64,000 bases of DNA from Clostridiales bacterium (GTDB taxonomy: Bacteria > Bacillota > Clostridia > Lachnospirales > Lachnospiraceae): assembly GCA_020860715.1 (NCBI GenBank), contig JAJBTU010000004.1, positions 1-64,000 on the forward strand. Direction: 5' to 3'. How positions within the stretch are numbered: position 1 is the stretch's first letter; every line of letters starts with the position of its first letter. The notes under the pieces are model-generated. The model saw only the letters and a program-made list of their open reading frames with translations, was not told the DNA's origin and did no database searches. Below, one piece after another: positions 1 to 25,245 of this stretch. The position numbers and the translations under genes were made by a program.

Positions 1-172
1 TCTATCGAGCCTCTTTTTTTCGGCTCATTTTTTCATAAGCTACTTGACACTACCGTATTTTGATAATTTATAAAACTCTTTCATTTTAAGTCTAATGGTT
101 TTAGAAGTCAACACATATCCGTCTCACTTTTTTGTGAAATAATGGTAGTATAGTCTGCCATATAATCAGCTT
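1..172. other. non-coding left edge
   Basis: This AT-rich stretch contains no convincing gene. A short hairpin (7-11 pairing with 22-26) followed by a T-rich run could be the terminator of a gene to the left. The usual N-terminal and central parts of the helicase whose C-terminus starts at 173 are absent here, so the junction probably marks a deletion end point. Confidence 0.4.
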
Positions 173-661: not shown

Positions 662-751
662 ATTCATGTCCGTGATTTGCCTCGGCAAATCATGGACGAA
701 GGCCACGCCATCGCGCAAATGCGCGATTCGGAATGGCGTGGCTCACTGTCG
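662..751 (+). repeat. double-hairpin palindromic element, copy 1 (in frame)
   Basis: Hairpin A pairs 668-680 with 685-697 (13 pairs, one G-U, loop CTCG). A GAAG spacer follows. Hairpin B has an outer stem 702-711/733-742, an inner stem 712-717/720-725 and a 7-nt unpaired spacer (726-732) on the 3' side only. It splits DUF4186 between KQTPM and GHPVF without breaking the frame. It shares GAC-GAAG-GCC.CGCCAT and ATTCGGAATGGCG with copy 2. Confidence 0.75.
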
Positions 752-1071
752 GGTCATCCTGTCTTTATTGCGCAGCACGCGACCGGATGCTGCTGCAGAG
801 GCTGTCTGGAAAAATGGCATCGGATTCCAAAAGGAGCAGAACTGACGGATGAGCAGCAGGAATATGTAGTCGATGTTTTGATGGACGAAATCAAACAAAT
901 CGCGCAAAAGGATGCAGGGCTTCGGGAAGAATTTCTACTGACAAGAGAACAGAAAAACCCGCTCTCGGCTTTCTGCGCGAAATGCAGGGAACTTGGTTAT
1001 CCCGTATATGAGATGGATGTCATAGCTGCAGGCGAGGAATCCTATGCGGCGATGAAGCGCAGCATACGGGA

Positions 1072-1147
1072 GAGCCGCGCCATTCCGAATCACGCTTGTG
1101 CGTGATGGCGCGGCCTACGTCGCGCATCTGCTGCTCAGATACACGAC
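1072..1147 (-). repeat. double-hairpin palindromic element, copy 2 (inverted)
   Basis: Read on the minus strand it has the same layout as copy 1: hairpin A (1147-1136 with 1130-1119), a 4-nt spacer, then hairpin B with outer stem 1114-1105/1083-1074, inner stem 1104-1100/1095-1091 and the 7-nt spacer on the 3' side. The imperfect pairs in hairpin A are G-U only when read on the minus strand. It disrupts the 3' end of the DUF4186 gene. Confidence 0.7.
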
Positions 1148-1248
1148 AATTAACGGCGGCGGTGAAAACTCACCTATGCTGGAAGCGGAGGATGACTTTT
1201 ACGAGTTATTCTTTGCCGGATTATAGGGCTTGTAGGAGATAGAAAGTT

Positions 1249-1422
1249 ATGAAATCTTCTCCGCAGGTACTGAGAGATGTCTATCTAGAATTATGCAAAG
1301 ATGCGGAAACATGGTCTGTGACAAATAATGCTGCCGGCCTGATCGAGATTGATTTCACGTTTTCTCTGTGCTCAGATGTATCAAAAAGCAATGCTTTGGA
1401 TTGCACAGATGAAAATCCATGA
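1249..1422 (+). CDS. small hypothetical protein (57 aa)
   Basis: The ATG follows a GGAGAT sequence at a suitable distance. The 57-residue product (MKSSPQVLRDVYLELCK...) has no signal peptide or membrane segment, and I do not recognise it. It may be the surviving N-terminus of a longer gene, since it lies directly behind the broken DUF4186 gene in a region of gene remnants. Confidence 0.35.
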   Translation: MKSSPQVLRDVYLELCKDAETWSVTNNAAGLIEIDFTFSLCSDVSKSNALDCTDENP

Positions 1423-1467
1423 AAAAATGCATATTGACAAAAGTTTAACAAAGATATATAATTCTTT

Positions 1468-1600
1468 TCAACAAGAGGGAGTAGTTGGCCGACAGGCTTT
1501 CGTACCGACTATCATGCAGATGATATGACCTGCACGGGATGAATTAAAAACAAGACTTTTGCGACAACGAACATTGTGGCAAAGGTCTTTTTCTTTATCC
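1468..1600 (+). promoter_or_regulatory. structured leader, possibly yybP-ykoY-like riboswitch
   Basis: The stretch opens with GAGGGAGTAG, continues with several short stems (GGCCGACAGGC, ATCATGCAGATGAT) and ends with an AAGACTTTTGC segment that is also the 5' arm of a terminator. GGGAGUAG at the start and an AAGAC.UUUGC segment at the end are features I associate with the manganese-sensing yybP-ykoY class, but the central ACAUAC-type motif is not clear. The gene downstream is a small membrane protein. Covariance-model testing would decide. Confidence 0.4.
1553..1596 (+). terminator. rho-independent terminator in leader
   Basis: A long stem (starting AGACTTTTGC.ACA, closing at 1588) is followed by TTTTTCTTT. 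Because it lies within a structured leader and before the ORF at 1643, it may act as an attenuator for that gene. Confidence 0.7.
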
Positions 1601-1642
1601 TGAAATGACCGGCGCCACCTGATTAGGAAAGGGAAGAACGAT

Positions 1643-1858
1643 ATGTTAGTACTTATTATTATGCTTTTGGGCCTGATGCTGTGGTTATTCTTTAAATTTA
1701 CATGGGTGATGCTGAAACTCTGTTATATATTTTGCATCGGGCTGCCACTGGCACTGATGCTGGGGATGCTCGGAATTGTGTTATGCTGTACACTGATTCT
1801 GGCACCGGTTGGAAGGGTATTGATGCATGCGGCGGGAAGAGTTATATATCCATTTTAA
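1643..1858 (+). CDS. small two-helix membrane protein (71 aa)
   Basis: A GGGAAG ribosome site precedes the ATG. Almost the whole protein is hydrophobic (MLVLIIMLLGLMLWLFF, then a Cys-rich helix), giving two predicted membrane segments and a short basic tail. I know of no function. Its position behind a structured leader and terminator suggests regulated expression, conceivably by a metal ion if the leader is a yybP-ykoY relative. Confidence 0.6.
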   Translation: MLVLIIMLLGLMLWLFFKFTWVMLKLCYIFCIGLPLALMLGMLGIVLCCTLILAPVGRVLMHAAGRVIYPF

Positions 1859-1917
1859 GTGAAAACAGGATGGCAGATACAGGACTGTGGTTATGAAAAA
1901 GGATTAAAGCAAATAAT

Positions 1918-1970
1918 ATAATTGCAAATGGAGAATGTACGTTCTTTTGCAAAGCCTGTTTTTTGGACTC
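1918..1970 (+). terminator. probable terminator after small membrane gene
   Basis: TTGCAAA at 1921 pairs with TTTTGCAA near 1958, with an inner GAATGT/ACGTTC stem, followed by GCCTGTTTTTT. It lies about 60 nt behind the stop of the 71-aa membrane protein. Confidence 0.5.
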
Positions 1971-2074
1971 GAAATTTTTTATACTGGATTCATGAAGACC
2001 TTAAATGAAAAAGTTAACCTGTACATGATATCTATAAAGATGTAAACCAGATTGGGGATTGTGAGGGATGTAAA

Positions 2075-2395
2075 ATGACAAAAGCAAACAAGAACGATAG
2101 AAATGAAAGCAAAAAGAACAGCCATCCTAACGAATTTGATATGATGATGGCAACGTATTTGCTGCATGAGGATATTGAAAAACAGACTCCGGTACGGAGA
2201 AATGCAGGTTCTGAGGTCTCCTGGTTAGAGGTAATCCTTTATTTTGTTGGCGGCTTCTTTCTTGAGTTTTTCATTTTGTATTTTCTGGGAGTTGATACGA
2301 GCAACCTTCCAGGTGCACTGGTATTGATCTTGTGGTTTGTATGCTCGATTCTGGTAATGATCGCAGCGGTCAACTACAGTACAAGAAAGCGATAA
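2075..2395 (+). CDS. small two-TM membrane protein (106 aa)
   Basis: The ATG is preceded by GTGAGGGATGT. The hydrophilic N-terminal half (rich in Lys, Asn, Glu) is followed by two membrane helices at about residues 50-70 and 78-98 and a basic tail (STRKR). No family is recognised. Gaps on both sides suggest it is transcribed alone. Confidence 0.55.
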   Translation: MTKANKNDRNESKKNSHPNEFDMMMATYLLHEDIEKQTPVRRNAGSEVSWLEVILYFVGGFFLEFFILYFLGVDTSNLPGALVLILWFVCSILVMIAAVNYSTRKR

Positions 2396-2661
2396 TGGCT
2401 GCTGATGAAACTGATTTAACAGGTTATTGATGGATAAGAGAGCGAGGTAGTACCATTGCGGTTCTTATATTGGATTCGGAAAACGCTGCGAGACGACAGG
2501 CATTGCAGGAAGTGTTGCATCATGTGTGAATATTATGAAATGTGCAGAAATGATGCTGAATAACTGGACAAAAGGAAAAGGGCGCTGCTAAAAAAACTCT
2601 GGTTTTACATAGAACCCTGAGTGTGAAAAAATATAATAAAAATGGATAGGAGAGAACGATT
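2396..2661 (+). other. non-coding, possible response-regulator relic
   Basis: No intact gene is visible. A frame near 2456-2529 reads TIAVLILDSENAARRQALQ, which resembles the first strand of a response-regulator receiver domain, but it stops after 25 residues. I treat it as a possible relic only. Confidence 0.25.
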
Positions 2662-2979
2662 ATGAGAAAAAAAGAAGGATACAGTAGAGAAGGAGCTTTT
2701 GGAACGATCAATCATTACGATGCAAAGGGAAAGAAGATTGGCGAGAGCAGGCCGGGTCTGTTTGGCGGTATGAACAATTATGATGCCAAAGGGCATAAGG
2801 TGGGGTATAGTACCGAGAACCTGACGGGTGGTTTGACACACCATGATAACCACGGCCATAAGACGGGCAGAAGTGATCCGGGAGTGTTAAGCGATTATGA
2901 TCATTATGATGCAAAAGGTCATAAGACGGGACATAGTGATTGGGGGCTTTTTGGGGAGATGAAGCATTATAAGAAATAA
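2662..2979 (+). CDS. tandem-repeat protein, HYDAKGHKTG repeats (105 aa)
   Basis: GGAGAG precedes the ATG. Nearly the whole protein consists of about five copies of a ~22-residue repeat with the core (H/N)YDAKG(H/K)K.G.S..GL(F/L)G, each beginning about 22 residues after the last. The repeats are rich in His, Gly, Asp and Lys, with no signal peptide or membrane segment. The pattern suggests a small beta-repeat fold and possibly metal binding through His and Asp, but that is inference. The repeats are similar in protein and diverged in DNA, so the array is not a recent expansion. Confidence 0.6.
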   Translation: MRKKEGYSREGAFGTINHYDAKGKKIGESRPGLFGGMNNYDAKGHKVGYSTENLTGGLTHHDNHGHKTGRSDPGVLSDYDHYDAKGHKTGHSDWGLFGEMKHYKK

Positions 2980-3043
2980 TCTCTTGATATCAGCTATTTA
3001 TCTGTAACGGTAGTATGAGTCATTTCGTTTGAAAATAAAATTC

Positions 3044-3078
3044 TTTATTTTACAAATGTAAAGCATTTGTAAAATAAA
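3044..3078. terminator. perfect 15-bp inverted repeat
   Basis: TTTATTTTACAAATG (3044-3058) and its exact reverse complement (3064-3078) enclose a 5-nt loop. It lies between the repeat protein and the next small ORF. It could be a bidirectional terminator, since both arms are AT-rich, or an operator. Confidence 0.5.
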
Positions 3079-3131
3079 CATTGGTATATTATAATTCTTC
3101 TTAGCGGTTTTGTTCCGCATACGAAGCCACA

Positions 3132-3377
3132 GTGTTACAGGTGCAGGAAGAAATCGCTCCTTTTGTAAAGAAGCATTTGTTCGGCCAAAACACGATTGAT
3201 GTAAAGAATATTCGGTATATGGTAGAAATACTTTTGAACCGGTATAATAATGTTTCCGTTACACAGGGAATGAATCATGGCAAAGATGGGAAACCTTGGC
3301 TGAAAATAACGGTAAGAACATTTTTGTTCAGTGAAGAAATATTTTTGGAGGTCACAGGCACTCAAAAAAGTGAATGA
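3132..3377 (+). CDS. small hypothetical protein (81 aa)
   Basis: The frame opens with GTG at 3132 without a strong ribosome site. The 81-residue product (VQEEIAPFVKKHLFGQ..., then LKITVRTFLFSEEIFLEVTG) looks like a soluble alpha/beta fragment. No family is recognised. It sits among pseudogenes, so it may be a remnant. Confidence 0.35.
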   Translation: MLQVQEEIAPFVKKHLFGQNTIDVKNIRYMVEILLNRYNNVSVTQGMNHGKDGKPWLKITVRTFLFSEEIFLEVTGTQKSE

Positions 3378-3466
3378 AAATCCGAACGGACTATAATTAT
3401 ATGGATGTATAGAGATATCCATTATTGGTTAAGCAAAAGAAAAAAATGGTTGGGGATATATGGCAG

Positions 3467-3733
3467 ATGACAAAATTTGATTATAAAAAGGCTCATGGAT
3501 ACAGCCATAATCATAAGCAAGAATTAGAGAAAGATTCTTTGTGCGGGTGATTTTACTGTCTTAAGATCTTCAATCTTATTGAAATTACAGATTGGATTGT
3601 AGAAGATAACGATTGTGATCACGGCGGTACAGCAATTTGTTCTTATTGTGGGATTGACTCTGTAATAGGTGAATCGGCTGGATTTCCGGTAATAAAAGAA
3701 TTCCTGTCTGGAATGAGGCAGGTATGTTTTTAA
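3467..3733 (+). pseudogene. zinc-ribbon-type cytoplasmic protein with in-frame TGA
   Basis: The translation MTKFDYKKAH.YSHNH... then LCG-stop-FYCLKIF and TAICSYCGIDSVIGES matches a small family with the pattern CGCFYC ... CPYCGIDS..GE. At 3548-3550 the second Cys of CGCFYC is TGA; the frame then stays open to 3733. A Cys codon differs from TGA by one base, so a nonsense mutation is the simplest explanation. Confidence 0.65.
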
Positions 3734-3829
3734 TATTATTATTATCATTAATAGTATTATTATGATAGGCTCTTCGAGGAATTTAATCCGTAGAATATAC
3801 CGGATGTAATCACCGCGGACTGATGAAGT

Positions 3830-4087
3830 TGGGGGAAGGCGTATGCACTGTCTGAGTTGGAGGCGGATGCGATTGAGACTATCCATCCATACGACACCAC
3901 GTGCTGATTGTCCATGGTACAAAAGATGAAATTGCCGATTGCAGCTATGCCCGCAGGGCAGCGGAAGTTTATCCAAATGCGGAGCTTGTGATAATTCCGG
4001 ACGGGAAGTACGGATTATCGATTATCCAATGAACACGATAAGATTGCGATGGAGTCTGTGGAGAGGTTTGTGAGAGCCGAAGAATGA
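3830..4087 (+). pseudogene. alpha/beta-hydrolase C-terminal relic
   Basis: Across shifting frames the stretch reads HHVLIVHGTKDEIADCSYAR, RAAEVYPNAELVIIPDG and DKIAMESVERFVRAEE, the end of an alpha/beta hydrolase carrying the acid-residue strand (VHGTKDE). A stop and a frameshift near 4018-4030 break it, the expected catalytic His motif is degraded, and the N-terminal half with the nucleophile is absent. No product is likely. Confidence 0.6.
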
Positions 4088-4172
4088 GTGGAATGACTCA
4101 AACATAGATCATCGGTAGAATGTTTTCAAAGGCAAAAAAATATAGAGGTAAATTAGAATCAAGGCGGTTGGT

Positions 4173-5078
4173 ATGAAGAAGATTATAAAAAGAAGCGCCT
4201 TCATTTCTCTGGCGCTGCTGCTTGTGGCTTGGATCGCGGCAGACAGGTATTACGCTCATCAGAATATGTTAGAAGTAAAGGCCACGTATCAGGAAGCAGT
4301 AGAACTGGCAGAGCAGAACTCCTATGGGGAAGCCTATGAACTACTCGAACAGATTAGCGAAGAACGATATTCGGATCTGGATATAGACGGGATGATTTCC
4401 CTGTGTCAGGCTCACATGAGTTATGACGAGGATGATATCGAGTCCGCTTATTCTGAGGTAAAGTCTTTGAATCTGGAGAATGTCAGCGACGAGATTCTGA
4501 CGGATTTGGACTCTTTCAAAGAGCAGGTAACTGCAGATTACGAGGTTTATCTGGAGGAAAAGGCGATCGCAGAGTCTGAAGCAGCGGAACAGCGGGCAAA
4601 AGAAAAAGCGGAGAGGGAAGCAGCGCAGGAAAAATCTTTTTTGGAGCGCCTCAGCAAGCAGGTTCCTTATGTGGGATTGTCCGAGGAGTATATCGGTAAA
4701 ACCGCCCTTGGCGCGCCGTCTTCAACAGTCCGGCATAATACGGAAATGATGAATGGCAAAGTTTATACTGCGAATCTGTATGATTTCAAGAGCGGCAATA
4801 CGACGATATTTACTGCACGATGTGTGCAGGGCGAGGTGATACAGGTTTGGGATAAACGCGATAAGGTATCATCCGGGAGTTCATCGTCTTCATCCAGCTC
4901 GGGCAGCAGCTCAAAAAGCATCTCGTCGAGTAGTTCAAAGAGCAGCAGTTCAAGCAGTTCCAGTAAGGATCAGTACAATGCGTCTGATTATGACGATCCG
5001 GAAGAATTCTATTATGATCATTATGATGATTTCGATGGCTATGAGGATGCGGAAGTGTATTGGGAAGATGCACAGTAA
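4173..5078 (+). CDS. membrane-anchored protein with coiled coil and Ser-rich linker (301 aa)
   Basis: A basic start (MKKIIKRS) and one hydrophobic helix (about residues 8-24) place the bulk outside the membrane. Residues ~30-120 look helical and TPR-like (YQEAVELAEQNSYGEAYELLEQ). Residues ~125-155 are a charged Ala/Glu/Lys coiled coil. A globular part (~160-230) ends in QGEVIQVWDKRDK. The C-terminus is a poly-Ser tract of about 40 residues and an Asp/Tyr-rich acidic tail. I know of no function. The Ser tract resembles the flexible linkers of secreted Firmicutes proteins. Confidence 0.6.
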   Translation: MKKIIKRSAFISLALLLVAWIAADRYYAHQNMLEVKATYQEAVELAEQNSYGEAYELLEQISEERYSDLDIDGMISLCQAHMSYDEDDIESAYSEVKSLNLENVSDEILTDLDSFKEQVTADYEVYLEEKAIAESEAAEQRAKEKAEREAAQEKSFLERLSKQVPYVGLSEEYIGKTALGAPSSTVRHNTEMMNGKVYTANLYDFKSGNTTIFTARCVQGEVIQVWDKRDKVSSGSSSSSSSSGSSSKSISSSSSKSSSSSSSSKDQYNASDYDDPEEFYYDHYDDFDGYEDAEVYWEDAQ

Positions 5079-5169
5079 GTGTTTTTTATCTTAAAAGAAT
5101 ATGCTGGCAAATGAATGACATATAAGATGTAGCTGTTATGATACAGAAATGGCAGAGGATTTAATAATT

Positions 5170-6372
5170 ATGGAACTTGGGTGGATTGATTTCTCGAAAA
5201 AGGACAGACAGAGAGTCCTTGATGTGATGAGCCTGCTGCATGAGCAGGGTGCTGTGGATGAACTGGGAATCGGCATCGTCCGGGATGCCTTTGCGAACGT
5301 GTTTTTCCCGGGGACATCAACCGTCCAGACCCGTGCAAAATATTTTCTGATTGTTCCGTATATTCTGAAAGATGCTGTTGATGGAAGATATGGCAGGGAT
5401 GTCAACCGTATTTTAAGATGCATTGATGAAGACGAGAAAACATGTGGCATACGTTTTCTGGAAAATAATCCGGATGAAGATGGGGTGATTGGGAAGCGGG
5501 TACTGCCAAATGGCTGGGTTGCCAGAAAACCGTCCGATATCTACTGGAATGGCATCCGCGCCTATGGTATTTTTACAGATGACACCCTGTCCATCCGGGA
5601 ATATGTGGCGCTCAGCATGAAGCTGAAGAATGATAAGCTGCGGCTGGCGGCAGGGAATCGCGGTGATGATGTAGCAGATGCAGACAGGGATGATAAAGAC
5701 GCCGGAGATTTTCGGATGTTCCGGTTTTGGAATATTCCTGTATGGTCGCAGGACTGGAGAGAGAATCTGCAGATGGATCTGACAAGGGAGGAAGCGTTGT
5801 TTTTAAAATCTCAGATCATTAGGAATACGGAACCTTCACTGTTATCCTATATTCTGAAAAATCATGTAGATATGGAACCTTATGGTGATTTTGAAGTCCT
5901 GACGGAAGCCCTGTCCTCTCAGCTTGATGAGCATACAGCATATCTGATGCGGCTTGCGAGTGATTTTAACAATCTGGTCTACATGGCGCGTGTCAGGTAC
6001 AATGTGATCCTCTCAGATGGTGAAAATGAGGAAGCTATTCGGGAGTGGAAATATCTGAGTGCAGACAGCGGAAAGTATGCTTCGGTCGATTTGAAAGCTG
6101 TTTTTGAAGAATTACAGATTAAAAATACGAAGACCTATGCTTTCCTTGCGGAACTGCAAGGGTGCTTTTATACAGGTCGGATGGAAGATGCGGATGCCTG
6201 TATCCGCAAACGTGAGATACAGCTGAAAGGTGTGGCACGGGCAAAGTTAAACCGATCGGAAGATTTCAATCCACAAGACTGGGTGGGTGGAAGAAAGTTG
6301 GATTACCGTTTTTCCAATGCGAAAAGAATCATACAGGACATTTATGCTGGGGAGGCTTGCGGCTATGTTTAA
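5170..6372 (+). CDS. DUF6361 protein, first gene of Azaca-like defence cassette (ZacA candidate)
   Basis: The start MELGWIDFSKKDR (ATG 5170, behind AGAGGA) is the typical beginning of DUF6361; an upstream ATG at 5149 would add seven residues. The segment LGIGIVRDAFANVFFPGTS followed by TRAKYFLIVPY is the family signature. The protein has about 400 residues, no membrane segment, and unknown biochemistry. Its last 8 nt overlap the start of the phospholipase-D-like gene and a large helicase follows, so the three are one translationally coupled unit. From memory this gene trio corresponds to the Azaca anti-phage system; I could not check that. Confidence 0.7.
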   Translation: MELGWIDFSKKDRQRVLDVMSLLHEQGAVDELGIGIVRDAFANVFFPGTSTVQTRAKYFLIVPYILKDAVDGRYGRDVNRILRCIDEDEKTCGIRFLENNPDEDGVIGKRVLPNGWVARKPSDIYWNGIRAYGIFTDDTLSIREYVALSMKLKNDKLRLAAGNRGDDVADADRDDKDAGDFRMFRFWNIPVWSQDWRENLQMDLTREEALFLKSQIIRNTEPSLLSYILKNHVDMEPYGDFEVLTEALSSQLDEHTAYLMRLASDFNNLVYMARVRYNVILSDGENEEAIREWKYLSADSGKYASVDLKAVFEELQIKNTKTYAFLAELQGCFYTGRMEDADACIRKREIQLKGVARAKLNRSEDFNPQDWVGGRKLDYRFSNAKRIIQDIYAGEACGYV

Positions 6373-8212
6373 ACCAAATGGAAATGAAGACCGCCGTGAT
6401 TACGGCCAGCTGCTAATGCCGCCGGATGGATTCCGGCTTGAAATGGCGGTCGGAACGACATACTCTCTGGATCTGGAATCGCTTGCTGCTGTGGCAATCT
6501 CTTTGGGAATATCGGAGGATATGGACAGCGAACTTTTGCAGAATCCGATCTGTATGCTGCATGCATTGCAGAAAGTCTCAGACAAAGTCATGATTTTTTG
6601 TGAAGCGGGGCAGATTAAAATGCCGGAAAATCCTTCAGTATTGTCTTTGCTGGTGGAGAAGATGGTGATACCGGTTGCTTTGCCGAAAGATAAAAAAATG
6701 GGAATATATCCGGCATTCCACCCGAAAACATGGATACTTTCTTATTATAATGATGCCGGAGAACGCCGATATCGTTTTGTTGTAATGAGCAGGAACCTGA
6801 CCTTTGACAGAAGCTGGGATGTCAGCTTTGCCATGGACGGAACTGTGGAAAGAGTGCGGGATAAAAAGACTGCGCCGATCATTTATTTTTTGAAATTCCT
6901 TACAGCACAGATCCCCGATGACTGGAGGGAAGCCGCCGGAAAAAGGTCCTCGATACGAGGACTGATAAGGGAGCTGCAGAATGTTTCGTTCTCATTGGAC
7001 AGCAGGGAGTTTGGAGAAGATTTTGAAGTGCTTCCGATGGGGATAGGAAAATACGGATATGATATGAGCCGGGATGTTCTGTTCTGCGATGAAAAATATA
7101 CGGCGGATTCTACGTTCAATGAGCTTGTAATCATGTCGCCGTTTTTGTCCGGAAGTATTATAGAATCTTTTAACCAGAATTATCACTCTCTTACGGAATG
7201 CAAACGAACGCTCATCACAAGAAGAAGTGAGCTGGAAAAATTAAAGCCTGAACAGGCAGATAATTTTGACATTTATGTGCTCAGAGATGAGATGGTAGAT
7301 GGGGAGGATTATCTCTCAGATGAGAGTGTGGGGAAATCCAGACAGGATATTCATGCGAAGATTTTTCTGAGAAGAAAATATGCGGATACTGATTTGTATG
7401 TTGGCTCCATGAACGCGAGCCATGCAGCTCTCCATAATAACGTGGAAATGATGGTTCGACTTCGGACAAAAAATCGGTATCTGAATGGCGAAACATTTTT
7501 GAAAGATATTTTCTGCGGACCTGCAGATGGTGACGGCAACCCGTTTGAGAAAGTAAGCATACCGGATGCGATACCGGAAAAAGAAGAAGATCGAAGGAAA
7601 GTCCTGGAAACAAAGATAAAAGAGATTTGCCGTTTAAATAAAACAGCATGTGCAGACGAGACGGATGCAGGGAAATATTGTGTCAGGATCCGGATAGAGG
7701 GTGTAAAAAAAGATGACAGCATTATGATTGCTCCATTTCGTTCTGTACAGAGAAAACCATTAAATGAGAAGATGGTCTTTGAAAATCTGGATCTGTTAAA
7801 ACTCTCAGAGTTTTATGAGATCACGGCAATGGATGAGGATTTGAAACTGCATCGGGTGATTATGATACCGACAACGGGCATCCCGGAGGAAAGAGACAGT
7901 GCTGTGGTAAATTCTGTTGTAAAAGACAGGTCAGCTTTTGTGGAATACGTTGCATATGTATTAGGGGATAATTATCTTTCAACTCTTATGGAGGAAAAAC
8001 AGTTGCAGGAGTCAGGGCTTTACCGCCAGTCAGGGGATGCCATGCCTGCCCTGTATGAAAAAATGCTGCGTGTTTCTCTGGAAGAACCGGAACGTCTGAA
8101 TGATATCCGTTATGTGCTGGATATGATTACGGATACGGATATTATTCCGCAGGAATTCCGGGATACCTATGAAATATTCTGTAAAACACCTAAGATACCT
8201 GCAAAATCCTGA
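6365..8212 (+). CDS. phospholipase D-like nuclease domain protein (ZacB candidate)
   Basis: I chose ATG 6365, which overlaps the DUF6361 stop in ATGTTTAA, rather than the open frame from 6287; this gives 615 residues. Two half-sites of a PLD fold are visible: HPKTW at H119/K121 followed by VVMSRNLT, and IHAKIFL at H330/K332 followed by LYVGSMNASHAALHNNVE. PLD-type HxK pairs catalyse phosphodiester cleavage, and in defence systems such proteins are often DNA nucleases. There is no signal peptide, so it is probably cytoplasmic. It lies between DUF6361 and the helicase in a tight operon (21 nt to the next ATG). Confidence 0.7.
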   Translation: MFKPNGNEDRRDYGQLLMPPDGFRLEMAVGTTYSLDLESLAAVAISLGISEDMDSELLQNPICMLHALQKVSDKVMIFCEAGQIKMPENPSVLSLLVEKMVIPVALPKDKKMGIYPAFHPKTWILSYYNDAGERRYRFVVMSRNLTFDRSWDVSFAMDGTVERVRDKKTAPIIYFLKFLTAQIPDDWREAAGKRSSIRGLIRELQNVSFSLDSREFGEDFEVLPMGIGKYGYDMSRDVLFCDEKYTADSTFNELVIMSPFLSGSIIESFNQNYHSLTECKRTLITRRSELEKLKPEQADNFDIYVLRDEMVDGEDYLSDESVGKSRQDIHAKIFLRRKYADTDLYVGSMNASHAALHNNVEMMVRLRTKNRYLNGETFLKDIFCGPADGDGNPFEKVSIPDAIPEKEEDRRKVLETKIKEICRLNKTACADETDAGKYCVRIRIEGVKKDDSIMIAPFRSVQRKPLNEKMVFENLDLLKLSEFYEITAMDEDLKLHRVIMIPTTGIPEERDSAVVNSVVKDRSAFVEYVAYVLGDNYLSTLMEEKQLQESGLYRQSGDAMPALYEKMLRVSLEEPERLNDIRYVLDMITDTDIIPQEFRDTYEIFCKTPKIPAKS

Positions 8213-8233
8213 AGAAAAGTGAGGGACAGATTC

Positions 8234-11200
8234 ATGCCAAAGTTTCATATAGATGAAATTGAAAAAGAAACTCTTGCGGGGCTAAAGGATTTCCAGCGGG
8301 CAACGGTTGACCGGATCGATCAGCTGTACAGGAGCGGGCAGAACCGGGTGCTTATCGCGGATGAGGTAGGGATGGGGAAAACCCTGGTTGCGAGGGGCGC
8401 GATTGTTAAGGTGGCCCGCCTTAGAATGGAAGAACAGGATGAACTGTTTAAGGTAGTATATATCTGTTCCAATCAGACAATCGCCAGCCAGAACATTCGT
8501 AAGCTTGATATTACCGGAGGAAACGCGATTGATTCTGTTACAGATACCAGATTGTCCATGCAGCATTTGAAAATTGCCCAGCAGGAAAGTTCCGAGAAGG
8601 TAAAAGAAGGATTTATCCAGCTGATGCCGCTTACGCCGGAGACTTCTTTTCACATGACATCCGGCGGAGGAAGCGTAAACGAAAGAGCCTTGATGTATGC
8701 CGTTCTAAAAAGGATGGATGAATTTAAGGAATATCTGGGACCTCTTGATGATTTTATGCAGCTGGATGCCCAAAATGCGTGGAGCTCATGGGCAAAGCAG
8801 CGTTACGAGGAAAAGGTGCAGGAGTGTGAGAAGCAGTCCGGTGGGAAATATCCGGCGAATGTAATCAACAAAATCCGGGAATATTCGGATTTTGAGGAAA
8901 TAAGGAAACAACTTATAATTCACCTCAGGGAACGGACAGACAACCGGGCGCTTTCCTGTTCCAATTATAAGATGATGAACCGTCTTCGTGTAATGTTTGC
9001 GAGAATCAGTGTGTCTATGCTGGAACCGGATCTGGTCATCATGGATGAGTTTCAGCGATTTAAGTACCTGTTGTCTTATGATGACAGTGAAATGGGAATT
9101 CTTGCACAGAAATTTTTAAGCGGAAGAGATACAAGGATTCTTCTTTTGTCCGCGACACCTTATAAACTTTATTCGACGATGGAGGAGATTGAAGAAAACC
9201 AGATTGATGAGCATTACGCGGAATTCTATCAGGTTATGGATTTCCTTTTTGAGGGAAAACAGGAAGAATTTCACACTGTTTGGAAAAATTATTCGGTTGC
9301 CCTTGTGGAAATGAAGTCGGGGCAGGATGCGGTAATACAGATTGAAGATCGCAAAAAACAGGCCCAGGATGAAATGTATCAGGGAATCTGCAGAACCGAG
9401 CGCATCTCGGTGATGGAGAGCGGTGACTATACGGACGACAGCAGTGTGCACGAACATCTGACTATCCATGAGAACGACATTGCTTCTTATCTGCAGATGG
9501 CAGGGCTTTTGAAAAAAACAGACTCAAAGGATTCACTTCCGGCCGATTATGTGAAAAGCTGTCCGTATCTCATGTCATTTATGAGAAAATACAAGCTCAA
9601 GGAAAGTCTGGAACAGTATTTTCGGAAGAACCCGGAGCGGGTAAAAGAGGCTAAGGGGGATCTGTTATGGATTGATGAGAGTAAAATCAACCATTATGAG
9701 AAGCTCCCGGGGACAAACGCCCGGCTTGCAGAGCTGATGGATCGTTCCCTCGGACATGGCGAAGAAATGCTTTTGTGGATCCCTCCATCAAAACCGTATT
9801 ATACGCTGCAGGGGGTATACAAGGACAGCAAATGTTTTTCCAAAATCCTGGTTTTTTCTTCCTGGGAGATGGTGCCAAGAATGATTGGCTCACTGGTCTC
9901 ATATGAAGCGGAACGAAAAACGATAGGTCAACTGGCAAAACAGGCCGATAACCGTGATAAGAAGAATGCAGTTTATTTTCCCCAAAAGAACATAAAAAAT
10001 GAGTCTGGAGCAAATGCAGCGAGATTTCCTGCACCCCGTCTGCAATTTCATGTATCTGGTGGACAGGCCAGCAGTATGAGTCTGTTTTGCCTGCTGTATC
10101 CGTCTGCAGTGCTGGCAGAGGCATATGATCCGATTGCTTTGATGAATGGGCACATGTCCCTGAAAGAGATTGAAGGACTTGTTGGGAAAAAGCTGGAAAG
10201 TCGCCTGGATGGGATAGAGAAAAGATATGGAACCGGGTTCATGTTCGGAAGGGCAGACGAGAGATGGTATTACCTTGCCCCGATGCTTCTGGATGGCATT
10301 CCCTATGTACAGGGATGGATTGCAGATATAAAAAAGCAGATGCAAACGGACAATGAGACCTTTATGGAAAAAGGAAACAAGGGCTTCCTGACGCACATAG
10401 CAAGGCTTGAACGCTATATATCCGATCCGGATCATATTGCGCTTGGGAAAAGGCCGGCAGATCTGGTGAAGATACTTGTAAATATGGCATTAGGCTCTCC
10501 TGCAATATGCGCGTACCGCTCTAACGGACAGGATGAAGCAAAGGCGACAGAGTTGGCCAGAGTATTCGTTAATAACTTCAATCTGCCGGAGGCTACCGCG
10601 ATTATTGATCTGGCATATGGAAAAAGCAGCGATGATAATTCCCATTGGCAGAATGTCTTGAAATACTGCAGGGATGGATGTCTCCAGTCGATGCTGGATG
10701 AATATCGGCATATCCTGTCAGAATCTGTGGGTTTTGGTGATGAAGAAGACAAGACAGAAGTGATACATACTATGATGGTGGAATCACTCCGCATCCATAC
10801 TGCCAGTTATGCAGTGGATACTTACAGGTCATTTAGCAGAAAAATTGCCGGGAAAAATACTGACGAGATACGTATTCGTTCAAACTTTGCCGTCGGGTTT
10901 ACGAAAGATGCAGGAGACAATGAAAGCCAGATAAACCGCAAGGAAAGCGTAAGAAATGCGTTCAATTCCCCGATGCGTCCGTTTGTCCTTGCTACGACAT
11001 CTATTGGTCAGGAAGGGCTGGATTTTCATAATTACTGCCGGAAAGTCATGCATTGGAATCTTCCATCCAACCCGATTGATCTGGAGCAGCGGGAAGGCAG
11101 AGTGAATCGATTTAAATGCCTTGCAATACGTCAGAATGTTGCAGAACGATATGGCGACATCACTTTTAAGAACGATGTATGGGCGGAAATGTTTGCGGCA

Positions 11201-11485
11201 GCGGCAGAGGGTGAAAAACAGGAAGGACAGTCAGAACTGGTGCCGTTCTGGTGCTTCGGGAAAAACCAGGACGTAAAAATCGAACGAATCGTGCCAATGT
11301 ATCCTGTGAGCAGAGACGAGGTGAATTATGAGCGTCTGGTTAAGATTCTTTCCATGTATCGGCTTACTTTAGGCCAGGCAAGGCAGGAAGAACTGCTGGA
11401 TTATATTTTTAAGGAATTTGATGACACAGAGAAACTGAAAGATCTTTTTATGGATTTGAGCCCCTATTCAAGGATTGCAAAATGA
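8234..11485 (+). CDS. large SNF2/DEAD-like helicase (ZacC candidate, 1083 aa)
   Basis: ATG 8234 follows GAGGGA at good spacing; the frame also allows GTG 8219. Superfamily 2 motifs are clear: Walker A DEVGMGKT (K49), Walker B MDEFQ (D271), motif III LLLSATP (S306), motif V TTSIGQEGLDF (near residue 926) and motif VI LEQREGRVNR (R953). The long middle region (residues ~330-900) separating the two RecA-like lobes is typical of defence-associated helicases of the DISARM/Dpd type. It should act as an ATP-dependent DNA translocase working with the PLD protein. The operon ends here. Confidence 0.8.
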   Translation: MPKFHIDEIEKETLAGLKDFQRATVDRIDQLYRSGQNRVLIADEVGMGKTLVARGAIVKVARLRMEEQDELFKVVYICSNQTIASQNIRKLDITGGNAIDSVTDTRLSMQHLKIAQQESSEKVKEGFIQLMPLTPETSFHMTSGGGSVNERALMYAVLKRMDEFKEYLGPLDDFMQLDAQNAWSSWAKQRYEEKVQECEKQSGGKYPANVINKIREYSDFEEIRKQLIIHLRERTDNRALSCSNYKMMNRLRVMFARISVSMLEPDLVIMDEFQRFKYLLSYDDSEMGILAQKFLSGRDTRILLLSATPYKLYSTMEEIEENQIDEHYAEFYQVMDFLFEGKQEEFHTVWKNYSVALVEMKSGQDAVIQIEDRKKQAQDEMYQGICRTERISVMESGDYTDDSSVHEHLTIHENDIASYLQMAGLLKKTDSKDSLPADYVKSCPYLMSFMRKYKLKESLEQYFRKNPERVKEAKGDLLWIDESKINHYEKLPGTNARLAELMDRSLGHGEEMLLWIPPSKPYYTLQGVYKDSKCFSKILVFSSWEMVPRMIGSLVSYEAERKTIGQLAKQADNRDKKNAVYFPQKNIKNESGANAARFPAPRLQFHVSGGQASSMSLFCLLYPSAVLAEAYDPIALMNGHMSLKEIEGLVGKKLESRLDGIEKRYGTGFMFGRADERWYYLAPMLLDGIPYVQGWIADIKKQMQTDNETFMEKGNKGFLTHIARLERYISDPDHIALGKRPADLVKILVNMALGSPAICAYRSNGQDEAKATELARVFVNNFNLPEATAIIDLAYGKSSDDNSHWQNVLKYCRDGCLQSMLDEYRHILSESVGFGDEEDKTEVIHTMMVESLRIHTASYAVDTYRSFSRKIAGKNTDEIRIRSNFAVGFTKDAGDNESQINRKESVRNAFNSPMRPFVLATTSIGQEGLDFHNYCRKVMHWNLPSNPIDLEQREGRVNRFKCLAIRQNVAERYGDITFKNDVWAEMFAAAAEGEKQEGQSELVPFWCFGKNQDVKIERIVPMYPVSRDEVNYERLVKILSMYRLTLGQARQEELLDYIFKEFDDTEKLKDLFMDLSPYSRIAK

Positions 11486-11583
11486 TGGATACAACAAAAA
11501 CTTTATTATTATAAATCCTTGTTGTTTCCGTTGAATAGCTGGAGAGACAGCACAAACCGTAGTAAATGTTATTGGAGGTTTTT

Positions 11584-12456
11584 ATGATACGAAATTCGAA
11601 AGAACAGGGGAATGATAATATAGTCTCATTTCGATTGAATCCAGAATGGGGAGGCGAAAATGCCGAAATATTTACCAATATGGGTTATGCACTTGAAAAA
11701 GGCACGTTGTTCGAACAGGATTATGAAAAAGCATTTCAAATGTATTGTATTGCAGCTGAGGCTGGTGAATCTCAGGCATTATCTAATCTGGGGTGGCTAT
11801 TTCAAAACGGTTTAGGTGTAGAAAAAAATATTTCTATGGCGATGAAGTTATATAAGCTGGCTGCGAAAGCTGATTGTGTAACTGCGATGATAAACCTTGG
11901 AAATATTTACGAAGATGGGGATCTGGGAGAGCCGGATTATAAAAAGTGTTTAAAATGGTATAAAAAGGCGGCGGAGTCTGGTAGCAAAATCGGATTATTT
12001 AATTATGCAAATTGTTACCACCTGGGTTATGGCGTCCAGAAAAATCATAAAAAGGCATTTCCAATTTTTAAACAACTGGCTGACGAGGGATATAAGGATG
12101 CTAATTTTTATGTCGGATTGTATTATCAGGATGGTAAGGGCGTAAAACAGGATTATAAAAAGGCCAGAAAATATTACCGACTTGGAACTGAGCAAGGTGA
12201 TATGCTTTGTTATAATCAACTCGGAGTTATGTATGCCGAAGGTCTTGGAGTCAAAAAAGATATTTGTGTAGCGTATGATTATTACCTTAAAGCGGCGCAG
12301 TTGGGAGATTCACTGGCCTATACAAACATTGCCTGGTTTTATGAGAATGGTGAGTTGGGTGAGGTTGATCTGGATCGAGCCATAGAGTATTATAAAAAAG
12401 CAGCAGAACAGGGAGAAGAAAATGCTATAGAGGCATTAAAAAGGTTGAAAATATGA
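11584..12456 (+). CDS. Sel1-like repeat protein (290 aa)
   Basis: A perfect GGAGG lies 6 nt before ATG 11584. From residue ~20 the protein is a chain of about seven Sel1/TPR-like repeats (for example ALSNLGWLFQNGLGVEKNIS and YNQLGVMYAEGLGVKKDI), each ~36 residues. Such solenoids bind other proteins; no enzymatic domain or signal peptide is present, so it is probably a cytoplasmic scaffold. Its stop overlaps the acetyltransferase ATG by 4 nt. The DNA is clearly richer in A+T than the helicase genes before it. Confidence 0.75.
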   Translation: MIRNSKEQGNDNIVSFRLNPEWGGENAEIFTNMGYALEKGTLFEQDYEKAFQMYCIAAEAGESQALSNLGWLFQNGLGVEKNISMAMKLYKLAAKADCVTAMINLGNIYEDGDLGEPDYKKCLKWYKKAAESGSKIGLFNYANCYHLGYGVQKNHKKAFPIFKQLADEGYKDANFYVGLYYQDGKGVKQDYKKARKYYRLGTEQGDMLCYNQLGVMYAEGLGVKKDICVAYDYYLKAAQLGDSLAYTNIAWFYENGELGEVDLDRAIEYYKKAAEQGEENAIEALKRLKI

Positions 12457-12884
12457 TTGTAAGAGAATTATCTATGGACGATGTTCCTTCTATCGGAAAT
12501 ATATATGTAGAGGCATTTGAACATCAACCGGGAACATTAAAATTTTACAGACTAGAGCCATATGTTCAATTTTGCAAGGACGCTGGTTATGCGTTTGTGG
12601 CTGAAGAATCTGGAAAAATCGACGGATTTATATTAGGTTATGAACATCCGGATATATTTAACGGAAGAATTGCATTTATAGAATTATTGGCGATTCGGCC
12701 AGAAGTTCAAAAGCAAGGTTATGCCAGACAGCTGATTGAACGTTTTGCAGAAGCTGCACGGGCTAAAGGTATTAGAGAAATATCTGTGGCAACGGCATGT
12801 TATAAGGATGCGTATTTGATTTATCGGCATTTAGGATTTACAGATTCCAGAAATGACATGAGAACACTTTTTAAAAGAATTTAA
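12453..12884 (+). CDS. GNAT-family N-acetyltransferase (143 aa)
   Basis: The length and layout match GNAT acetyltransferases: IVRELSMDDVPSIGNIYVEAF at the start, then beta-4 IAFIELLAIRPEVQKQGYARQLIE with the acetyl-CoA pyrophosphate loop Q-K-Q-G-Y-A, and a C-terminal YKDAYLIYRHLGF. The substrate cannot be read from sequence. It is translationally coupled (ATGA overlap) to the Sel1 gene, so the Sel1 protein may be its partner or target. Confidence 0.8.
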   Translation: MIVRELSMDDVPSIGNIYVEAFEHQPGTLKFYRLEPYVQFCKDAGYAFVAEESGKIDGFILGYEHPDIFNGRIAFIELLAIRPEVQKQGYARQLIERFAEAARAKGIREISVATACYKDAYLIYRHLGFTDSRNDMRTLFKRI

Positions 12885-12905
12885 ACTGTGCAAAGAGGTG
12901 GTTAG

Positions 12906-13151
12906 ATGAATACGAAAATGCCAATCACTGACTATATGAAAGAGAAAATACCTTATGCTTGTGAATATATAAAAAAGTATGGACGAGAAACGGAGGATGG
13001 TATGTGGGAATTTGATTTTCCAAATATCAACACAGCTGCATTGCCAACCCAATATAAGGGCAGGGTTGAGTTGCTGTTCAAAGAATGTATCGAGACAGGA
13101 AAGATATTAGAAGAGGTAATGCCATCCGCGCCTAAAAATGTAATTTTGTAG
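12906..13151 (+). CDS. small hypothetical protein (81 aa)
   Basis: AGAGGTGG precedes the ATG, 21 nt behind the acetyltransferase gene, so it may share its transcript. The product is acidic and soluble (MPITDYMKEKIPYACEYIKKYG ... WEFDFPNIN), with no membrane segment. I do not recognise it. Confidence 0.55.
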   Translation: MNTKMPITDYMKEKIPYACEYIKKYGRETEDGMWEFDFPNINTAALPTQYKGRVELLFKECIETGKILEEVMPSAPKNVIL

Positions 13152-13229
13152 TGATAAAAGTAGGTTACATACGGATACTATTGAGCATTATTAGCTGGAA
13201 TGGAAGACAGGCACTGAAAAGGTATTATT

Positions 13230-13802
13230 ATGAAAAAATTGAGAATCCTGATGCTGGGAAACAGCTACATATTTACAAATGATATGCCAAAGATGCTGGC
13301 AGAGATTACCGGAGCGGAAGTTGTATATCATACGCGCGGCGGCGCAAGGCTTTCAGAACAGTTGAATCCTAAAACGGGGATGGGTGCGAGGACTTTGAAA
13401 GCGTTTGAGGAAGAACATTGGGACTATGTGGTGCTGCAGGAGATGAGTAATGCACCTGTGACGACGAGGGAAAAATTTCTGGCAGCGGCGGCTGCACTTT
13501 GTGATAAAATACATTCGAGTGGTGCCACCCCGGTTTTTTACATTACATGGGCATACCAGAAGGGCGGCTTACAACTGGAAAAGTCAGGACTGGATTATGA
13601 TGGAATGTACCATGGCCTGCAGGACGCATACCGGATGGCGGCATCAAATGGCAATGCCCTGATTGCTGATGTGGGGACTGCCTTTTATGAAAGAAGCCCG
13701 GAGGAAAATCTGTATGCGGATGATGGAAGCCATCCGAATGAAGCAGGGTCAAGACTGGCTGCAGAAACAATAGCGGCGGTTATTCTGGCTGATTCCAAAT
13801 GA
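13230..13802 (+). CDS. SGNH/GDSL-type hydrolase (190 aa)
   Basis: The N-terminus LRILMLGNSYIF carries block I with the likely nucleophile Ser12. Block III is near QEMSN, and block V is DDGSHPNEAG with the Asp-x-x-His pair near the C-terminus. These are the marks of SGNH esterases/lipases, which deacylate lipids or sugar esters. The length is normal and there is no signal peptide, so it is cytosolic. The substrate is unknown. Confidence 0.75.
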   Translation: MKKLRILMLGNSYIFTNDMPKMLAEITGAEVVYHTRGGARLSEQLNPKTGMGARTLKAFEEEHWDYVVLQEMSNAPVTTREKFLAAAAALCDKIHSSGATPVFYITWAYQKGGLQLEKSGLDYDGMYHGLQDAYRMAASNGNALIADVGTAFYERSPEENLYADDGSHPNEAGSRLAAETIAAVILADSK

Positions 13803-13914
13803 ACAGATTTTTATGATGGGAAGCAGTCCATAAACGCCAGAACCGGGATGAGAGTGAAATATGTCAGATAATGGAACAGGATTCAAATGTTGACGGATAC
13901 AGGGAGGGATTTCT

Positions 13915-14911
13915 TTGATAGAAAAGGATTATCACTATCTGTCGCCGGACAGAAAGACAAAGATACATTTCCATGAATGGCTGCCGGAAGGCCATCCGAA
14001 AGCCGTGGTTCAGGTATCACATGGGATCACGGAGCATATCGGCCGGTATGGTAAACTGGCATCCGCTCTGGTAGAAAAAGGATATGCTGTGGCCGGGAAT
14101 GACCATGCGGGACATGGAGAATCCGAAAAACCGGACTGTTACAGGTGGGAGCACCTTGTGAAAGATACGCATCGTCTGCAGGAGTATTTAAAGCAGCAGT
14201 ACCCGACGGTGCCATTTTACAGCATCGGTTTTTCTCTTGGCTCCTTTGTTATATGTCCGTACTTGCACAGCAAGTATGGACGAAGGCCGCGCCAATCGCG
14301 CAGCGATTATTTGTTGCGCGGCTCTCCTTATTGTACGGGACCTGCTCGCACATTACCCTGACAGCGCAGATGCAGCGATACTGATCGGAACCGGTTTCCA
14401 GAGTGCATCGCAGCTTTCGTTTGCCAAAGCAATCGCCGGTCTGGAAGCAAAGCGGGTCGGAGACGGCAACCGAAGCAAACTCATACAGGCTTTGTCTTTT
14501 GGCACATATAACCGTTATTTCAAACCGAATAAGACAGAATTTGACTGGCTCTGCGAAAATGAGGATGGGAGAAACGATTATATTCAGGATGATGCCTGTG
14601 GAGAATTTATGCCTGCGGGATTGTTCAGGGAACTCCTTTGCGGGATGATGGCTGCGGGAAGTAAGGAGAGTATAGAAAAAATCCCGAAAAAGCTGCCTGT
14701 GCTTTTCCTTTCCGGAAATGACGACCCGGTCGGAGAGATGGGGAAAGGCGTAGAGCGGCTGATGAATGCGTATAAAGAAGCACAGATCAATGATGTTTCT
14801 GTAAACTTCTATCCGGGACGCCATGATATCCTGCATGAAGCATGTCAGGAACATGTCATTGGGGATATCGTTGAATGGCTGGACGGGCTTTATTGGCAGG
14901 AATATCTGTAA
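13915..14911 (+). pseudogene. alpha/beta hydrolase (monoacylglycerol lipase-like) split by palindromic element
   Basis: The first part, from TTG 13915 behind GGGAGG, reads HFHEWLPEG..., QVSHGITEHIGRY, NDHAGHGES and the nucleophile elbow GFSLGS (GxSxG). The second part, in another frame, continues RDLLAHYPDSADAAILIGTG to LFLSGNDDPVGEMG (acid) and GRHDILHE (His). The halves would join as GSFV-RDLLAHYP, but 79 nt of palindromic element at 14251-14329 lie between them and cause a +1 shift. Catalytic residues are intact on both sides, so the damage looks recent. It was a serine hydrolase of the S33 lysophospholipase type. Confidence 0.8.
14251..14329 (+). repeat. double-hairpin palindromic element, copy 3
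   Basis: Hairpin A pairs 14255-14266 with 14270-14281 (12 pairs, one G-U). The GAAG spacer and GCCGCGCC follow as in copies 1 and 2. Hairpin B has an outer stem 14286-14292/14316-14322, an inner stem 14294-14299/14303-14308 and a 7-nt 3' spacer (14309-14315). The insert is bounded by the hydrolase codons for GSFV and RDLL, so its length of about 79 nt can be read directly. Confidence 0.75.
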
Positions 14912-17052: not shown

Positions 17053-17406
17053 ATGAAACAAAAATCAGCAGTAAGCCAGGAATTATATCAGATCATGCTG
17101 GATAAAGGATATTCGGAGCGGTTCTGCGACTGATTACGCAGAGCCTCAATACGGATTTTACAGCGCGGAGGATGATCGGTTATTTGTCCCATTACAGTGA
17201 ACTTCCGGAAGGGGAGGTTGTGGATGAGATGCTCGCGATTTTAAGTGACAGGGTCGGCCAAACGCGAAGCGTTTCTTAAATGCCGACCCGATCTGCCGCT
17301 GAACGAAGTGAGGGGGCGCTTCCACCGGGAGCGGATTATGCAAAAGAAAGAGCTGGAACACAGCAACGCAGTTTATAACGAGTATCTGAACAGCAGAGAG
17401 AGGTGA
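17053..17406 (+). pseudogene. small conserved protein, frameshifted and element-interrupted
   Basis: The reading starts MKQKSAVSQELYQIMLDKGY, loses one base after FCD at ~17130, and continues in another frame as LITQSLNTDFTARRMIGYLS... EMLAILSDR. The palindromic element at 17251-17331 then interrupts it, and the C-terminus QKKELEHSNAVYNEYLNSRE resumes to the stop at 17404. It appears to be a small helical protein belonging to the polymerase/YolD cassette. I know no function for it. Confidence 0.55.
17251..17331 (+). repeat. palindromic element, related copy 4
   Basis: Hairpin B-like structure: outer stem 17251-17258/17282-17289, inner stem 17260-17265/17269-17274 and a 7-nt 3' spacer (17275-17281), the same spacing as copies 1-3. 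A weaker hairpin (GCCGCT ... AGGGGGC, ~17295-17317) lies on the 3' side rather than the 5' side. It is therefore a relative with different order, not a clean fourth copy. It interrupts the small gene between SDR and the KELEHSN tail. Confidence 0.5.
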
Positions 17407-25036: not shown

Positions 25037-25074
25037 CAAAAAGAGCGCGAAACAAATAAACTGTTTCGCGCTCT
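25037..25074 (-). terminator. riboswitch expression-platform terminator
   Basis: On the minus strand a 13-bp perfect stem (25074-25062 with 25054-25042) is followed by TTTTT. It begins immediately after the second glycine aptamer, so aptamer folding can decide between termination and read-through into gcvT. Confidence 0.88.
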
Positions 25075-25245
25075 GTCATGTGACCTGAAAGATTCCCGGG
25101 ACCATCCTCCCGGTTGCTTCTTCGGCGCGGCAATCCATGCCGCTTTCCAGAGTATCGTCAGAAGCTGGTCCTTTTGCCTGAGAGTTCTTCAGCCCCTTCG
25201 GCGTACTTCCCTGTATCTCTCCCAGCTTCGTCATCCGATCTATGA
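25075..25245 (-). promoter_or_regulatory. tandem glycine riboswitch
   Basis: On the minus strand the first aptamer runs from GGGAGAGA through GCCGAAGGGGC to CTCTCAGGCAAAAGGACCAG, and the second from ACTCTGGAAAG through CGCCGAAGAAGCAA to ATCTTTCAGGTCACATGACAG. These are the conserved blocks of the two glycine-binding domains. It precedes a terminator and the gcv operon, so glycine should turn the operon on. Confidence 0.9.

Follow-up and report, generated by a model that had tools for sequence, protein, structure and literature searches.

The window, i.e. the whole 64,000-nt stretch analysed here (positions 1 to 64,000 of contig JAJBTU010000004.1, assembly GCA_020860715.1, of a Clostridiales bacterium of the family Lachnospiraceae), carries three copies of a small palindromic element composed of two hairpins. 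An open reading frame (ORF) on the forward strand at 173-1105, with a UvrD_C_2 stretch and a DUF4186 domain according to Pfam, hosts copy 1 and ends early at copy 2. Copy 3 splits a Hydrolase_4 gene into two forward-strand ORFs: the 5′ part (13915-14361), with its stop just past the element, covers Hydrolase_4 positions 2-96, and the 3′ part (14237-14911) covers positions 88-237 (Pfam). The three copies had been placed here, each with a hairpin A and a compound hairpin B, by an earlier interpretation made without database searches (the sequence-only reading), and both positions and folds were confirmed. Folded alone, copies 1, 2 and 3 gave z-scores against dinucleotide shuffles of −7.2, −3.6 and −5.4, respectively.

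Architecture and insertion sites

The core of copy 1 (667-743, forward strand), delimited like the others by sequence and fold, consists of hairpin A (668-697), the spacer GAAG (698-701) and hairpin B (702-742), in which an outer stem (702-709 paired with 735-742) encloses an inner stem and a 7-nt bulge on the 3′ side. Copy 2 is inverted and its core reads from 1148 to 1073 on the reverse strand, with hairpin A at 1119-1147, the spacer GTAG at 1115-1118 and hairpin B at 1074-1114. Copy 3 lies on the forward strand (core 14254-14323), with hairpin A at 14255-14281, GAAG at 14282-14285 and hairpin B at 14286-14322. The proposed order of hairpin A, spacer and hairpin B with a one-sided bulge was upheld, except that the spacer is a set of GNAG variants and not just GAAG. 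A descriptor search that itself demanded GNAG returned 216 distinct candidates, 116 of them well formed, a few of which are chance hairpins. The general plan is T, hairpin A of 8-13 bp, GNAG, an 8-bp outer stem, an inner stem usually of 6-7 bp, the 3′ bulge and T, with a mean core length of 71 nt and a unit of about 75-85 nt. Among the 116 well-formed matches the spacer was GCAG in 72, GTAG in 25, GAAG in 16 and GGAG in 3; the flanking T was present before hairpin A in 111 and likewise after hairpin B in 111, and bulges of 7, 8 and 6 nt numbered 59, 25 and 16, respectively. Copies without GNAG exist among the matches of the first covariance model described below (e.g. loci L090, L100 and L106). 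Nested or truncated copies, in which a hairpin-A unit is followed by GGTACC, GATACC or GGAACC in or beside another copy, were seen at L107, L100, L106 and L090, and an extra GC-rich hairpin (beginning GGTCGGTGCTAAACGAGCGCCACTGGCGCTCAG) is inserted within hairpin B in two species (L170 of genome G042, at the copy 1 site, and L318 of G014, near 4173).

The inserted segments were delimited by empty alleles in relatives. At the site of copy 1, where seven of the printed loci were empty and three filled, relatives read CCGATGA-RA-GGTCATCC in place of the window's 89 nt. The segment (663-751) replaces 2 nt, so that the net gain is 87 nt or 29 codons in frame, in agreement with the estimate of about 30 residues in the sequence-only reading. 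Genomes G008 and G042 each carry both a filled and an empty copy 1 site, in paralogous genes. The site of copy 2 (inserted segment 1065-1151, replacing 2 nt; net gain 85 nt) was empty in nine printed loci and filled in G039 and G042, and the site of copy 3 (about 14250-14331; net gain 82 nt) was empty in all eight printed relatives, with flanks 93-96% identical in the three closest. The claim of insertion inside genes holds in frame for copy 1, copies 2 and 3 cause frameshifts (translational bypass was considered for them), and 22 of the 54 scored copies of the host genome lie between ORFs.

Of 36 further host-genome sites that were prepared, 20 were queried against three close genomes, and the flanks were then compared with the loci of the relatives. 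A clear empty allele was found at ten of these sites (L033, L035, L036, L040, L041, L043, L045, L048, L050 and L053) and a probable, less clean one at L034 and L042. The net gain at the further sites was 78-85 nt, usually the element plus 1-6 nt. Since empty alleles exist for all three window copies and for ten other sites, the copies are insertions; such empty-site orthologues had been named beforehand as the comparison to make. Three sites (L047, L055 and L089) were left out of the count because their element-free counterparts are other copies of a larger repeat. They lie within a different dispersed palindromic repeat with arms around cttcgccattgtctgagcgaagcgag / gcgaagcgagggataata, element-free copies of which are present in G008, G013 and record L140. 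No obvious common sequence was recognised by eye in the left flanks of the empty alleles, unlike the fixed short target 3′ of which elements derived from IS200/IS605 insert. A RecD2/DUF4186 region of G042 (contig C66, L313, about 1137-3279) holds four elements in about 2.2 kb and may therefore be an insertion hot spot.

Copy number and distribution

A first covariance model was built from 16 copies of the host genome. In this genome of 2.67 Mb at least 58 matches were obtained, 53 of them at E <= 3e-6, after 150 of 1104 candidates had been scored; this abundance is far beyond chance. When 98 relatives were scanned with the same model and up to 47 copies were scored per genome, 17 of the 47 genus genomes (counting the host) contained at least ten copies, and two further genus genomes had marginal matches only. 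Outside the genus (51 genomes) this sequence-heavy model found two matches, both marginal. The exact pattern, searched in 84,980 species genomes, occurred in 33 stretches, 29 of which came from uncultured Lachnospiraceae or Clostridiales assemblies; the remaining four lie in high-GC genomes and were taken as chance. The exact canonical pattern had no match in viral contigs, and blastn with one 92-nt copy found no match in phages or plasmids.

A model of the two hairpins matched 10 of 299 family genomes at E 1e-5, and a cross-genus model matched 14 of 397, representing 14 genera with from two to at least 12 copies each (host included in both). In a phylum sample of 398 genomes the cross-genus model gave no match outside the family, the matching genomes being the host and one other family member. 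The element is widespread in part of one genus and patchy over the family Lachnospiraceae. Between genera the stem sequences differ, while a GNAG spacer, replaced by CTAC in G154, and a bulge that ends in AT are repeatedly seen by eye. Seven equal-scoring copies were found in G276 and five in G344; those that were read are identical in sequence, which suggests recent spread. The dispersed family and the host group expected by the sequence-only reading, which had advised a covariance-model search of Lachnospiraceae genomes, were both borne out by these searches.

Fold, strand and host genes

The stems vary between copies while their pairing is kept, as the sequence-only reading had stated. In an alignment of 12 genus sequences of equal length (alignment A3, made from 12 of the 15 sequences of one length class), the covariation was 0.428 vs 0.157 after shuffling, with none of 500 shuffles reaching the observed value, and 94.3% of the cells were paired vs 79.8% in shuffles. 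The cross-genus alignment of 28 sequences, which was fitted to the structure, gave 0.710 vs 0.181 (0 of 500 shuffles) and 96.4% paired. Pair and wobble counts were made on 122 distinct sequences filtered from the 216 descriptor candidates, and most pair positions show several Watson-Crick types among them. Compensatory changes were also seen at orthologous sites: relative to the window copies, a G-C pair is replaced by A-T in the inner stem at the copy 1 site of G014 (L146) and in the outer stem at the copy 2 site of G042 (L147).

The non-Watson-Crick pairs of hairpin A, read on the element strand, are G-T in 80 cases and A-C in 14, and the skew persists after collapse to 59 sequence clusters (42 vs 13, p = 1e-4). 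Where the element spans an ORF in antisense (21 copies) the count is 17 G-T and 0 A-C, and where it spans an ORF in sense (17 copies) it is 16 vs 2, the assignment of sense and antisense resting on simple ORF picking. It is accordingly the element's own strand whose fold is kept, as a folded single strand of either DNA or RNA, and not a fold of the host mRNA. The G-U pairs reported for one strand of the element were recovered; selection on an RNA, which had been read from them, is not shown by this alone, as the bias persists in the ORF-antisense copies.

Of the 54 scored host-genome copies, 32 overlap an ORF. Those that span an ORF lie antisense in 11 cases and sense in 3, those at ORF edges antisense in 7 and sense in 11, and between ORFs of the same direction antisense copies prevail by 11 to 1. 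Over all genomes (122 sequences) the antisense and sense counts are 21 and 17 for spanning copies, 16 and 15 at edges, and 24 and 5 between ORFs; the antisense bias is weaker inside ORFs and holds between them. Six of the sense cases belong to one AAA-ATPase_like family, and some sense cases are probably shadow frames. Among 32 spanning frames (17 antisense, 15 sense), seven sense frames (L059, L076, L086, L103, L114 and two at L126) were set aside, without a family search, as shadow or chance frames; those at L286, L100 and L108 had no Pfam family. When each locus was counted once, in-frame copies with a Pfam host numbered 19 in antisense and 2 in sense, namely copy 1 and the AAA-ATPase_like family. 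Host-genome genes that remain open through the element encode, according to Pfam, isoleucyl-tRNA synthetase, cysteinyl-tRNA synthetase, a DNA topoisomerase, NAD synthase, the carbamoyl-phosphate synthase subunits CarA and CarB (insert near their ends), a nitrite/sulfite-reductase-type protein, an antiporter subunit, a GH43 protein, a pseudouridine synthase and hydrolases. In sister species in-frame hosts include RecD2 (two in-frame copies in one ORF), EamA, DUF1848 and AAA proteins (Pfam).

Searched at the gathering threshold, the window gave no Rfam family over the elements; its Rfam matches are a glycine riboswitch at 25063-25160 (reverse strand) and a GA-cis RNA at 17247-17327 (forward strand). 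Tandem repeats at 43112-43247 and 42408-42660 have spacings of 18, 24 and 48 nt, which are multiples of three. At the very start of the window (1-54), the first 48-57 bases are found again where contigs C14, C27 and C39 of this genome begin, and also in congeners; contigs hence break at a common repeat.

Movement of the element and its relation to known systems

The copies very probably represent a family of small, non-autonomous mobile elements of the Lachnospiraceae that is defined by its two-hairpin fold more than by its sequence. An enzyme supplied in trans would recognise the folded plus strand (T, hairpin A, GNAG, bulged hairpin B, T) while this is single-stranded and would copy or move it into new sites, and harmful insertions would afterwards be removed by the host. 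Copies occupy gaps between genes, where a ribosome binding site is often adjacent, or are inserted within genes in frame; few broken genes were encountered. A wider proposal is put forward only tentatively: the element may belong to a structure-defined superfamily of mobile parasites of nucleic acid, confined to the Lachnospiraceae, in which only the fold and a few letters (T, GNAG and the bulge ending in AT) would be inherited across genera, the folded single strand, DNA or RNA, would be moved by an enzyme other than an HUH transposase, and essential proteins would gain in-frame segments.

Several observations weigh against a family of mobile elements of this kind. Neither a mobilising enzyme nor an autonomous relative was found in the searches. 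Target-site duplications are inconsistent, ranging from none to about 10-12 nt; a few copies have a clear one (L034, with at least 4 nt, L326, with about 10 nt, and L345), and most coding sites have none or an unclear one. Direct repeats containing the left arm of hairpin A stand on both sides of several copies, a feature not accounted for by simple insertion, and at L045 and L042 one such stretch is already contained in the empty allele. The wobble skew is weak at most in hairpin B (16 vs 6 in the outer stem, 2 vs 2 in the inner stem), the wobble counts are not mutually independent, and template-switch correction of imperfect palindromes could mimic part of the covariation without selection. 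L045, L094 and L102 prompted the thought that every hairpin A is a copy of target sequence; this was dropped, as the empty alleles of copy 3 and of most other sites contain no trace of hairpin A.

Small size, dispersal, lack of autonomy and stable folds are shared with bacterial miniature inverted-repeat transposable elements (MITEs) such as Correia/NEMIS, ERIC and RUP. The present element differs in that no terminal inverted repeats join its ends (the 5′ GTCC pairs within hairpin A and the 3′ TCTCC lies outside the stems) and in that the target duplication has no constant length. Double-hairpin and repetitive hairpin elements of mitochondrial DNA (title of PMC2800124; elements of Allomyces) share the two-hairpin plan by name; they are mitochondrial and belong to unrelated hosts. 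For 16 loci searched in Rfam at E up to 0.1, four matches were obtained, none over the element that had fetched the locus. The literature searched, a scope outside which most subscription papers and all preprints fall, held no account of such a family in the Lachnospiraceae, in line with the sequence-only reading, which knew no named family of this structure.

Retroposition, in which the element's own RNA would be reverse-transcribed into new sites by the enzyme of a group II intron or a retron, is regarded as unlikely, although the one-strand wobble, the ragged junctions and the variable or missing target duplication would all fit it.

Somewhat less probable is a true system of repetitive extragenic palindromes (REPs), in which hairpin B and the GNAG tag would be the REP, moved by a REP-associated tyrosine transposase (RAYT) of the Y1 HUH type. 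The available part of PMC3733652 sorts REPs into GTAG and CGTC super-families, reports tagged REPs in eight phyla (neither Firmicutes nor Clostridi appears in its text) and describes intragenic REPs in repair helicases, tRNA synthetases and pseudouridine synthases, i.e. in the same kinds of genes as here. Like REPs and REPINs, the element is a short dispersed palindromic repeat, and its GNAG, unpaired at the foot of a bulged hairpin, may correspond to their tag. The REP tag is an unpaired GTAG at the end of a palindrome of 20-40 bp; in the element the tag separates two unlike hairpins of fixed tandem order, so that hairpin A abuts its other side, and it is mostly GCAG, with GTAG in 25 of the 116 GNAG-required matches. 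The host genome had no match to the Y1 transposase family PF01797, a search that enzymes too diverged for this family would escape, and the family is present in 11 of 17 element-bearing genus genomes vs 14 of 30 others, which leaves six bearers (host included) without it. Among 13 bearers of other genera it occurs in five and is missing from eight, including G276 and G344 with their identical copies. Seven Y1 proteins that were scanned, five of them from bearers, are IS200 enzymes far under the RAYT cut-off. In 20 fetched Y1 loci the search for the element gave nothing better than E 0.45; at L247 of G036, another Y1 gene has its start at a distance of about 330 nt from an element. As its presence does not follow that of the element, a Y1 transposase was rejected as the partner, and with its absence from several bearers a REP/RAYT origin is unsupported. 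No Y1 enzyme, whether RAYT or IS200, is detectable in several bearers; movement must hence depend on a different enzyme or on one that has since been lost. Candidates are a reverse transcriptase, a recombinase or an HUH protein that has diverged beyond the reach of PF01797. By analogy the element behaves like REPs and Rickettsia palindromic elements (RPEs), and its membership among the former fails on the transposase.

A cis-acting RNA, i.e. a leader fold 5′ of the next gene whose copies are kept because they control its translation or stability, is improbable. The covariation is strong, and each of the eight copies fetched from G344 is followed, in sense, by a ribosome binding site and, 20-26 nt downstream, by a start codon, an arrangement seen in 13 of 15 copies after seven loci chosen by eye from G276, G415, G291 and G184 were added. 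Further loci, e.g. L327 of G291 and L355 of G184, lack it. However, the downstream genes look unrelated, as judged by eye from their N-termini, the window's genus has copies inside genes and in both orientations while orthologues live without them, and antisense copies, too, keep their wobble on the strand of the element.

A selfish peptide of the RPE type, for which the open frame would matter and the fold would be secondary, is equally improbable. RPEs and other MITEs are described in the accessible parts of PMC10969869 and PMC2229807, and PMC3733652, as far as its text is available, lists CGTC repeats, including RPE-4 and RPE-6, without a dedicated transposase. In-frame insertion in housekeeping genes, essential enzymes among them, with empty-site orthologues and no dedicated transposase reported in the accessible text of these sources, is common to RPEs and the element, so that the likeness drawn in the sequence-only reading is justified. 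Compared by description only, as far as these texts are available, RPEs are long stem-loops of 105-146 bp (PMC2229807) or short and CGTC-tagged, and the CGTC tag is unpaired (PMC3733652); the element has two hairpins and a core of 71 nt, and its hairpin A begins T-GTC with GTC paired. The frame reading ESRAMQN... is used at 13 of 21 antisense in-frame loci (the 19 with a Pfam host and two without), the others at 6 and 2 (p = 0.012), though the six frames are about equally open (0.47-0.58) and this frame is open in just 38% of the copies between genes. All six frames are open in 6.6% of the elements vs 2.1%, and the stops over six frames number 3.21 per element vs 4.83 in pair-preserving shuffles. 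The comparison with dinucleotide shuffles (3.48) points in the opposite direction, the stops being only slightly fewer than composition gives, and avoidance of stop codons in all six frames was rejected on this basis.

As a family of non-autonomous mobile elements, the copies described here would add a family of the Firmicutes to the hosts of intragenic palindromic elements, which are known from Rickettsia and from Proteobacteria rich in REPs. With empty alleles present in many sister species, the process of insertion can be read directly, and the missing transposase sharpens the question of how REP-like elements move. Aminoacyl-tRNA synthetases, carbamoyl-phosphate synthase and RecD2 with their in-frame inserts serve as natural experiments in protein insertion. 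In the genomes that bear it, the element accounts for broken or lengthened gene calls.

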